50,755 nt of DNA. Origin: a filamentous cyanobacterium CCT1 (GTDB lineage: Bacteria > Cyanobacteriota > Cyanobacteriia > Phormidesmidales > Phormidesmidaceae). Made by a program: the position numbers and the translations under genes. Below are positions 8,314 to 10,322 of this stretch, one piece after another; the first letter of the stretch is position 1, and each line of letters begins with the position of its first letter. The DNA lies in assembly GCA_003017855.1 (NCBI GenBank), contig PYER01000013.1, forward strand, positions 1 through 50,755. Direction: 5' to 3'. Under the pieces are notes generated by a model, which was not told the DNA's origin, searched no databases, and saw nothing but the letters and a program-made list of their open reading frames with translations.

Positions 8314-8556
8314 ATGCGATCGCAGATTGGTCAGTGGGGTAATTCCTTAGGGCTCAGGATTCCTAAATATATCGTTGAGGCGCTACACCTTCAGGTCAAC
8401 GATGCAGTGGAGTGTTCAGTGGAAAATGGAGCGCTGGTCATCAAGCCAATTCAAGCTTTGCCTGAGCTCAGTTTAGACGAACTTTTAGCCGAGGTCGTCG
8501 AGTCACCCGACCCAGAAGTAGATTGGGGCGGTCCGGCTGGGGAAGAGGTATGGTAG
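8314..8556 (+). CDS. mazE: AbrB/MazE-type antitoxin
   Basis: An 80-aa antitoxin. Residues 1-45 (SQIGQWGNSLGLRIPKYIVE ... NGALVIKPI) form the swapped-hairpin SpoVT-AbrB DNA-binding domain. The acidic tail (ELSLDELLAEVVESPDPEVDW) matches toxin-neutralising tails of MazE. I prefer the ATG at 8314; a TTG at 8302 is in frame but lies 1 nt from the nearby AGGA. The gene overlaps the toxin gene by 7 bp, which suggests coupled translation. It probably represses itself through the inverted repeat at 8264-8290. Confidence 0.88.
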   Translation: MRSQIGQWGNSLGLRIPKYIVEALHLQVNDAVECSVENGALVIKPIQALPELSLDELLAEVVESPDPEVDWGGPAGEEVW

Positions 8557-8885
8557 CCTACATTCCCAATCGGGGGGATTTTATCTGGTTGAGCTTTGAC
8601 CCTCAAGCAGGACATGAGCAGATGGGTAATCGCCCTGCCCTAGTAGTGAGCCAAACCGGCTTTAACGCCAAAATGGGGTTTGTCTTCGTTTGCCCCATCA
8701 GCAATACCCAACGGCGAAATCCCTTTTATGTGCCGGTGCCAGCGGGGGAAGCCGTGACCGGGGTGATTATGGCTGACCAGGTGCGATCGCTCGACTACAA
8801 AGCCAGAAAAGCCCGCTTTATTGCCTCCTGCCCAGACCTGTTACTTCAGGATGTCTTGAGACGCATTAAGCCCATTCTGTTCTGA
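8550..8885 (+). CDS. mazF: MazF/PemK-family mRNA interferase toxin
   Basis: A 111-aa ribosome-independent endoribonuclease toxin. Family features are GDFIWLSFDPQAGHEQMGNRPALVVS at residues 9-34, where the RPALVVS strand is diagnostic, CPISNTQRRNPFYVPVP in the middle, and the C-terminal DQVRSLDYKARK segment carrying the Ser/Asp-Arg patch. The ATG at 8550 lies inside the end of mazE, behind GGAAGAGG. The gene looks intact, so the pair may be active. The cleavage site cannot be predicted from sequence. No other accessory genes flank the pair, so its role (persistence, phage response or selfish maintenance) is open. Confidence 0.9.
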   Translation: MVAYIPNRGDFIWLSFDPQAGHEQMGNRPALVVSQTGFNAKMGFVFVCPISNTQRRNPFYVPVPAGEAVTGVIMADQVRSLDYKARKARFIASCPDLLLQDVLRRIKPILF

Positions 8886-9468: not shown

Positions 9469-9522
9469 GGCACCAATTCACAAAACTCCAATTCACAAAA
9501 CTAAATATGCAAATTATTGACC

Positions 9523-9538
9523 ATGCACAGAAGTGCAT
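9523..9538. promoter_or_regulatory. Putative PadR operator 1
   Basis: ATGCACAGAAGTGCAT is a perfect inverted repeat with 6-bp arms and a 4-bp centre. The ATGCA/TGCAT form is close to known PadR-family operators. It lies between padR and the Coq4-family gene. A partial third copy, ATGCAA followed 4 bp later by TTG, begins at 9507. Confidence 0.7.
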
Positions 9539-9556
9539 ATAAGATGAGGGCATTAA

Positions 9557-9572
9557 ATGCAAAGAGTTGCAT
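9557..9572. promoter_or_regulatory. Putative PadR operator 2
   Basis: ATGCAAAGAGTTGCAT is a second perfect 6-4-6 inverted repeat, 34 bp from operator 1 centre to centre. That is about three helical turns, compatible with two dimers binding on one face of the DNA. It lies on the Coq4 side of the divergent region. Confidence 0.7.
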
Positions 9573-9662
9573 ATTCACTCAGTTGCACTCTCATTATGTC
9601 GCTTCTGGGCAGCCGCCTGATGTCGCGATCGCATTTGTTCACATCCTCCCTGGAGAACTGCC

Positions 9663-10322
9663 ATGATTAGCCGCATTCAGCCATTTTCCAAGCGTCAGCG
9701 CAGTTGGTCGCCCCTGACCGGTATCGACTGGTCGGAGCTGGGGGCCGCCTACCGCGCCTTTTTGAGCAATCCCGCTGCTGGCATTCTGCACATTCTCGCC
9801 GCCGGACGCCGCAGCCAGTGGCAGCGCTGGGTCGATAACCGGCTAGAGCGGCAGGCGGCTCACCTGGCCCACCGCACGATTGCCGTCGATCTCGATGCCC
9901 TGGTGCAGTTACCGCCCGATACCCTCGGCGGTGCCTATGCTCGCCACATGCTTCGCTGCGGATTTGACCCAGCAACCTTTATGACCGACGAAGCCAACCG
10001 CGAGTGGCTGCGCCAGCGCACGGCGATCAGCCACGATATTTACCATATCTATACCGGGTTCGATGCCTCACCGATCGGCGAGTTTGGAGTGGCGGCCTAT
10101 ACCCTGGTACAGTACCGCGACTTGCTCAATGTATTTGTGCTGTCGTTTGTGCCGTTGAGCCTGACCAACCCGCTCTGGACGGTGCCGCTGCTGCGGGCGT
10201 TGGGGCGGGGTTTTCGCATGGGGATGAAGGGCAGGGCTGCGATCGCCTACCCGCCCGAACTCAACTGGGACAAACCGCTCGCGATCGTGCGACAGGAGCT
10301 AGGGTTGGGAGAATTTTTCTAA
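9663..10322 (+). CDS. Coq4-family protein
   Basis: A 219-aa homologue of COQ4, the eukaryotic and bacterial ubiquinone-pathway protein recently linked to oxidative decarboxylation of the quinone ring. The metal site is complete: H124-D125-x2-H128 followed after 11 residues by E140 (HDIYHIYTGF ... SPIGE). The length fits the family core. The ATG at 9663 is preceded by CTGGAG. Cyanobacteria are known to make plastoquinone rather than ubiquinone, so the substrate here is not obvious: a plastoquinone intermediate or another prenylated phenol is possible. Its likely control by the divergent PadR regulator suggests induction by a small phenolic compound. Confidence 0.85.
   Translation: MISRIQPFSKRQRSWSPLTGIDWSELGAAYRAFLSNPAAGILHILAAGRRSQWQRWVDNRLERQAAHLAHRTIAVDLDALVQLPPDTLGGAYARHMLRCGFDPATFMTDEANREWLRQRTAISHDIYHIYTGFDASPIGEFGVAAYTLVQYRDLLNVFVLSFVPLSLTNPLWTVPLLRALGRGFRMGMKGRAAIAYPPELNWDKPLAIVRQELGLGEFF

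Follow-up and report, generated by a model that had tools for sequence, protein, structure and literature searches.

The padR-coq4 Locus and Its Surroundings

The window, i.e., the whole analyzed stretch of 50,755 bases from the cyanobacterium CCT1, contains a divergently oriented gene pair for an AphA-type regulator of the PadR family and a Coq4-like protein (Table 1); the closest named relatives are Nodosilinea and related filamentous cyanobacteria. The interval that an earlier, sequence-only reading had presented as the center of a divergent PadR/Coq4 unit is exactly the gap between both start codons, and the two perfect palindromes described there were recovered. Articles are cited below by their PMC numbers, and the statements attributed to them refer to passages of their text.

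Genes for Usp and PGK are located 3' of coq4 in seven of the eight listed PadR-coq4 loci of the genus, the exception being L007. Neither a carotenoid oxygenase (CCD) gene nor a monooxygenase gene adjoins the unit in the window, according to the listed translations and the Pfam assignments of the flanking genes. Between padR and the ylqF GTPase gene, a MazE/MazF-type toxin-antitoxin pair occupies positions 8314-8885; no ORF of its size is listed at that place in loci L005-L008 and L011-L013, and thus the pair looks like a recent insertion.

Table 1. Genes and predicted regulatory elements of the padR-coq4 locus (positions in the window).
Feature	Position	Strand	Evidence
padR, AphA-type PadR regulator, 181 aa	8923-9468	-	PF10400 92.6 bits, PF03551 54.8 bits
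Regulatory region common to padR and coq4, 194 bp	9469-9662	.	footprint alignments
Lone half-site ATATGCAA, 5' of the coq4 -35 box	9505-9512	+	sequence, alignment of 11 loci
Predicted -35 box of the coq4 promoter, TTGACC	9517-9522	+	promoter scan, 9/12 matches
Putative operator 1, ATGCAC-AGAA-GTGCAT, within the -35/-10 spacer	9523-9538	.	pattern count and alignment
Predicted -10 box of the coq4 promoter, TAAGAT	9540-9545	+	promoter scan, alignment
Putative operator 2, ATGCAA-AGAG-TTGCAT, ~12 bp beyond the predicted -10 box	9557-9572	.	pattern count and alignment
Third site, degenerate, 8/10 positions	9573-9588	.	alignment
coq4-like gene, 219 aa, metal motif HDIYH-x11-E intact	9663-10322	+	PF05019 47 bits

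Predicted Operators and Promoter of coq4

The pattern ATGCAN6TGCAT is found twice in the window, both times in the padR-coq4 gap, against 0.08 occurrences expected from shuffled sequences (a count of two was reached in 1 of 100 shuffles). Exact copies occupy four places in the 6.85 Mb genome (G000), two of them in this gap, and the reversed control pattern has none; one of the two other sites is within a coding frame and the other is between listed ORFs. A global AphA-like regulon in this genome was considered and is unsupported as far as exact sites are concerned, since the other two make no clear operator. In passages of the AphA ChIP-seq study, the consensus and preferred site is the palindrome ATGCAA-N4-TTGCAT (PMC6855506), to which operator 2 is identical and with which operator 1 agrees at 10 of 12 positions, and the box of the Vibrio AphA orthologs is given elsewhere as ATATGCAN6TGCATAT (PMC3440409).

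The predicted coq4 promoter encloses the first of the two sites. TTGAC followed after 17 nt by TA is present in 18 of 20 aligned rows, several of which represent one genome under two records (an earlier alignment comprised 11 loci), and operator 1 is inside this 17-nt spacer. The promoter scan of the window placed the same -35/-10 pair at 9517-9545, and thus operator 1 has a position fit for a repressor. One other plus-strand candidate was listed, at 9638-9667 and overlapping the start codon of coq4; on the minus strand, the scan predicted no promoter for padR. In the 11-locus alignment, operator 2 is better conserved than operator 1, which is degenerate in L009 and L013. Alignments with relatives from the genus and from other families, where a promoter/operator layout similar to that of the window recurs, identify the palindromes as conserved predicted operators. 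Their proposed distance of about three helical turns stands for the window itself, where the sites are 34 bp apart from start to start (3.2 turns); however, the spacing varies from 29 to 37 bp among relatives, so strict helical phasing was rejected and the helical-turn argument is weak. A 16-bp element with a TTGCAT half-site is tandemly repeated in the operator region of L009 (~793-830) and in the same region of L017.

The PadR Regulator

Both PF03551 and PF10400 (Vir_act_alpha_C) are found in the regulator above the Pfam cut-offs. Its best match among solved structures is AphA (1yg2, the V. cholerae protein; E = 6.9e-40, aligned over 1-177, nearly the full length); the two proteins have a common recognition region and share ASHQQ(I/V)YREL. 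Nearly as close is the second match, 8ioi, another PadR protein (E = 2.6e-38), and the PadR structure 5x11, from B. subtilis, is a weaker one (E = 2.5e-18). The predicted types of regulator and operator are in agreement, an AphA-like protein being combined with AphA-like sites. The structure model of the PadR monomer has a mean pLDDT of 71.5. Median dN/dS values of 0.138 for padR and 0.128 for coq4 (36 pairs from 9 sequences each) indicate purifying selection on both genes.

The sensing of phenolic compounds, which the sequence-only reading took over from the PadR family, is not specific for this protein, whose best characterized match is AphA and whose sister PadRs adjoin carotenoid-oxygenase-like genes. 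The AphA ChIP-seq study that was searched lacks the word 'ligand'; AphA is described there as binding single sites, or adjacent sites cooperatively (PMC6855506). The resemblance to AphA has a limit in scope: AphA controls many genes in quorum sensing, whereas two of the four exact sites in the present genome adjoin the regulator itself. The same genome encodes a second, more distant PadR of the PF10400 type on contig C33 (L111 381-2438), divergent to an HlyD/RND-type exporter adaptor gene, with no AphA-type site of at least 8/10 between them.

The Coq4-like Protein and Its Subfamily

The product of coq4 matches PF05019 over profile positions 72-217 (47 bits vs. a cut-off of 22.9) and aligns over approximately residues 74-216 with the solved relatives 3msq (E = 1.7e-18) and 6e12/Alr8543 (E = 2.7e-9). 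The HDx2H-x11-E metal motif, correctly read as complete in the window (HDIYH...GE), is also conserved in relatives, being invariant in the 11-row and 13-row alignments and present in 10 subfamily loci. A structure model built from 11 similar rows was too poor for use (mean pLDDT 46.6).

Coq4-family genes in general are common (30 of 57 genomes), and the window's protein shares with COQ4/Alr8543 the Pfam match, the metal motif and the alignment just described. It differs from them in belonging to a separate subfamily: in 388 genomes of the class, the profile of the PadR-linked Coq4 proteins (A3) gave at least 228 bits for subfamily members and at most 110 for the other listed Coq4s, fragments aside, since the subfamily fragments in G004 and G280 likewise have low scores. 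A tree of Coq4 proteins sets the subfamily apart on one side of a branch, whose support is modest (77/87). The difference extends to the regulatory sites, since none of 12 non-subfamily Coq4 genes is preceded by a site of at least 9/10, the 12 being those of 15 checked loci that gave an ORF with the motif. On contig C407 (L001 39-1974), the window's genome has a second Coq4 gene, which overlaps a cytochrome P450 gene at the end of the latter; the combination was dropped as a functional clue because the close relatives L035, L038, and L039 are without such a P450.

Linkage of PadR and coq4 Across Cyanobacteria

The linkage seen in the window extends beyond its genome, both to the same genus and to other families. 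Two conditions that the sequence-only reading had named as refuting it, an absence of linkage elsewhere and a loss of the metal motif in cyanobacterial orthologs, are thus contradicted by the data. Among 26 genomes of the genus, 16 encode a full or nearly full subfamily coq4 (in G024, matched only from residue 33), three contain a remnant or a truncated gene (G004, G019, and G023), and seven gave no match, four of these being at least 99% complete; the unit is therefore absent or defective in 10 of the 26, some of which are incomplete assemblies or have the break close to a contig end. PadR adjoins coq4 divergently in all 16 genomes having the gene, although the contig of G005 ends inside padR.

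Outside the genus, we found nine intact copies in seven families (f1, f7, f11, f15, f23, f24, and f32), and a tenth one with a broken frame, located at the edge of a contig and preceded by a 10/10 site (G280, L055). A divergent PadR adjoins six of the nine (G268, G204, G118, G145, G144, and G210), and the neighborhoods of these six loci differ. In G039 and G313, coq4 is preceded by AphA-type sites with no adjacent PadR, and the G033 copy has a divergent TetR regulator and no AphA-type site. Sites of at least 9/10 were counted upstream of seven of the ten outside-genus subfamily genes (L047, L048, L049, L050, L051, L053, and L054); in L052 (G145), there is a single 8/10 site upstream of coq4, and L055 was missed in this count because it was read from a truncated frame.

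The phylogeny of the regulators suggests that the pairing arose repeatedly. We placed 93 of 94 examined PadR loci (L123, with less than 150 aa, was left out) together with seven Coq4-linked rows in a tree of 100 rows obtained by a quick search, where the 13 rows linked to Coq4 are distributed over four places, one of these rows, L120 (G210), being on a long, poorly resolved branch. A single clade of all 13 rows was rejected (p-AU 1.8e-56), as was the addition of G144, G145, or G210 singly to the main Coq4-linked group (p-AU 0.004, 1e-6, and 0.007, respectively). Two genomes of one genus, G145 and G134, have flanks of ~80% DNA identity, and the distance from padR to the PF13826 gene is 860 bp with coq4 in G145 vs. 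115 bp in G134. With Coq4-linked PadRs coming from several lineages, the same Coq4 subfamily appears to have been combined with different PadRs having one operator type in common.

Sister PadR Loci and Their Neighbors

The set of sister PadR loci comprises 94 members, namely 80 selected by score and 14 chosen for interest. The former are the best-scoring PadR matches outside the window's genus down to G137, minus the chosen ones and G336, which is located at a contig edge; the latter come from 15 chosen regions, one of which (L115) has no PadR. Of the 94 loci, 57 (48 of the 80) have a site of at least 9/10 no farther than 250 bp from the start of padR; among 4109 windows drawn at random from these loci, 19 have one.

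The largest neighbor cluster is that of the CCD genes, found near 41 of the 94 loci (39 of the 80), which are not independent, many being from one family, f23. In 38 of the 41 loci (36 in the 80), the CCD gene is on the divergent side, in the divergent direction and within four ORFs. Two members of the cluster were confirmed as PF03055, the others having been assigned by BLAST clustering. These two match apocarotenoid-15,15'-oxygenase, the Synechocystis enzyme, with E = 2.6e-79 and 1e-71, vs. 2.4e-34 and 6.8e-31 for the best lignostilbene dioxygenase, and neither reached the curated NCBIfam cut-off. The other neighbors are cupin genes (19 of the 94 loci), epimerase-like genes (14), PF13826 genes (13, 9 of them in the 80; the gene is absent from the window's genome), a weaker PF13826-like second group (11), flavodoxin-fold reductase genes (5), and ABM-like genes (4). 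The Coq4 subfamily occurs near six of the 94 loci, all of them among the chosen 14 and none among the 80 selected by score. In G039, the search found just one PadR of this type, which is divergent to a CCD gene, and coq4 with its AphA-type sites is on another contig, which suggests possible control of coq4 in trans. No site of at least 8/10 was detected in the padR-CCD gap of this genome, which counts against a simple common regulon there.

Proposed Regulation and Function

The padR-coq4 unit is real, conserved, and readable on its regulatory side, and the interpretation given to it by the sequence-only reading is supported in part. Its genes, operators, promoter geometry, conservation, and repeated pairing can be read from the sequences compared here, and the predicted wiring of the unit is well supported. 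We infer from this layout that PadR would bind both sites, repress, and be released by a ligand. In the best reading, to which we assign a probability of roughly 0.64, the regulator is a repressor of the AphA type that acts locally on its own gene and on that of a metal-dependent Coq4-like protein, a small molecule being the inducer. A dimeric PadR dedicated to the padR-coq4 locus would bind the two ATGCA-N6-TGCAT palindromes; at site 1, between the -35 and -10 boxes of coq4, it would exclude RNA polymerase, at site 2, just 3' of the promoter, it would form a second block, and from the common gap it would also restrain padR. A small molecule would release PadR, coq4 would then be expressed, and the Coq4-like protein, with its HDxxH-x11-E site intact, would act on the inducing molecule or a close relative of it. 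Because AphA activates as well as represses, as passages of two articles describe (PMC3440409, PMC6855506), coq4 could also be activated in some state.

Apocarotenoid- or isoprenoid-like lipids are our tentative first choice for both inducer and substrate, a phenolic compound or a plastoquinone/quinone precursor being less probable. This ranking of lipids is guilt by association, as it proceeds from the sister PadRs that have the same operators and adjoin apocarotenoid-oxygenase-like and monooxygenase-like genes. In a wider and more doubtful version, a cyanobacterial AphA-type PadR family would sense an apocarotenoid or isoprenoid and derepress interchangeable clearing enzymes (an apocarotenoid oxygenase, an af470-like monooxygenase, or Coq4), and Coq4 would be an apocarotenoid/prenyl-acid enzyme that such promoters captured repeatedly. 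We know of no role of the Coq4 family in apocarotenoid or prenyl-acid metabolism. The origin of all Coq4 cases among the 94 loci from the chosen set and the lack of a site in the padR-CCD gap of G039 slightly reduce our confidence in the best reading and in its wider version.

Another explanation, which we consider unlikely, is that PadR senses 4-hydroxybenzoate or a p-hydroxy aromatic acid and that Coq4 is an inducible C1 decarboxylase, e.g., of the prenylated 4-hydroxybenzoate of plastoquinone synthesis, which would parallel the classical PadR-phenolic acid decarboxylase pair. According to passages of a 2024 article, the ancestral COQ4 reconstructed for animals catalyzes a Zn-dependent C1 decarboxylation in vitro, and mutants in its HD-xx-H-x11-E site, a motif intact here, lose activity (PMC7615680); for a human cell line, a review mentions an oxidative decarboxylation in a single step (PMC11495197). 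The accessible account of cyanobacterial plastoquinone synthesis leads from chorismate through UbiC, UbiA, and UbiX-type steps and includes a putative 4-hydroxy-3-solanesylbenzoate decarboxylase; the pathway is described as incompletely known, and loss of sll0936 as merely lowering plastoquinone (PMC7133116). A Coq4-type decarboxylation is thus conceivable in this pathway, and the contrast that the sequence-only reading drew between a ubiquinone enzyme and plastoquinone-using cyanobacteria is softer than it looks, as it overlooks such a reaction. The flavodoxin-fold reductase and ABM-like genes at five and four sister loci, respectively, are possible quinone/quinol enzymes and would also fit. 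However, UbiD (PF01977) is present in 26 of 27 tested genomes, including that of the window (the exception, G023, has a truncated coq4), and Coq4 as a replacement of UbiD was therefore rejected; an essential ubiquinone-like role of the COQ4 type is likewise unlikely here. The seven genomes of the genus without a coq4 match also speak against this explanation, and no annotated neighbor cluster contains an aromatic-acid gene, the largest being that of the CCDs. Taken with the loss or breakage of coq4 in 10 genomes of the genus, the distribution of UbiD argues that coq4 is not a core quinone step and favors an accessory inducible reaction on a lipophilic compound.

Coq4 could instead be a non-enzymatic, metal-dependent lipid-binding or carrier protein, whose supply PadR would set under membrane or lipid stress. 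Such a role would be consistent with the structure of Alr8543, a Coq4 relative from Nostoc, in which, according to the accessible passages, Mg ions are accompanied by a lipid, initially modelled as geranylgeranyl monophosphate and subsequently as oleic acid (PMC9774615), and with the organizing role proposed for Coq4 in a review (PMC11495197). We regard it as improbable, since the metal motif, invariant in 13 rows and present in the 10 subfamily loci, is conserved as for a catalyst, although the metal may be structural. The explanation that padR and coq4 are neighbors through vertical inheritance only, with the true PadR targets elsewhere, is very improbable: the largely syntenic locus within the genus (Usp and PGK, as above) and padR autoregulation, which alone could preserve sites in the gap, would agree with it, but the neighborhoods differ outside the genus, several PadR lineages are involved, sites are retained at coq4 genes with no adjacent PadR, the exact sites of G000 include no other clear operator, and site 1 is inside the predicted coq4 promoter.

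Comparison With Known Systems

A local PadR regulator next to an enzyme gene is a known arrangement, the classical pair being PadR and phenolic acid decarboxylase, an enzyme that is non-homologous to Coq4. The padR-coq4 unit resembles this pair in having a local PadR beside a single enzyme gene, and Coq4 could also be a decarboxylase; it differs in its regulator, to which the PadR structure 5x11 is the weaker match. The cyanobacterial CCD genes of the apocarotenoid-15,15'-oxygenase type, an assignment tested by sequence for two of them, are comparable in being located near sister PadRs with the same operators, but none adjoins the window's unit. The strongest new lead is the operator common to Coq4 and to the apocarotenoid-oxygenase-like and monooxygenase-like operons: one operator type and one PadR group beside these three kinds of genes across cyanobacteria point to a regulated response to small lipophilic compounds.

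Among the papers listed in searches of the openly licensed literature, none joined Coq4 with PadR or treated a regulator of a cyanobacterial Coq4, an absence that is weak evidence given that only openly licensed papers were covered. In one of these listings, PadR has a single mention, in a rhodopsin study, and the accessible passages of PMC7660261 mention a Nostoc punctiforme PadR-like regulator with no link to Coq4. Structures of bacterial Coq4 homologs have been solved, a settled function was not found in the same literature, and it is only in recent work that COQ4 chemistry itself was described, as passages of PMC7615680 (2024) indicate. A Coq4 gene under a dedicated repressor would offer a genetic handle, as the inducer would point to a candidate substrate class.

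Gene Remnants and Local Variants of the coq4 Locus

The three genomes of the genus with broken genes differ in what is left. In G023 (L014, L032/L123), padR and coq4 both lack their N-terminal parts and the operators, as if through one deletion, which is near a contig end, so that an assembly fault is possible. In G019 (L034/L122), padR is intact and only residues 171-214 of coq4 were matched, near a contig end, and in G004 (L033), what remains of coq4 contains a stop and the genome yielded no PadR of this type. A second C-terminal fragment of coq4 lies ~2 kb 3' of the intact gene in two further genomes (G007:C8:40611-40691 and G010:C21:36509-36592).

Outside the genus, the G033 locus (L046 2133-2354) has in its gap TTCATCA...TGAA-like repeats, identified by eye, around a TTGACA box, and a zinc-type dehydrogenase gene is located 3' of coq4. 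In G313 (L051 367-1104), a chorismate-binding ORF, isochorismate-synthase-like by family, is upstream of coq4 in the same direction. In G144 (L109 2461-5767), coq4, an ORF whose match to Mpo1-like falls just short of the Pfam cut-off, one more ORF, and a monooxygenase-like PF13826 gene are codirectional and divergent to padR.
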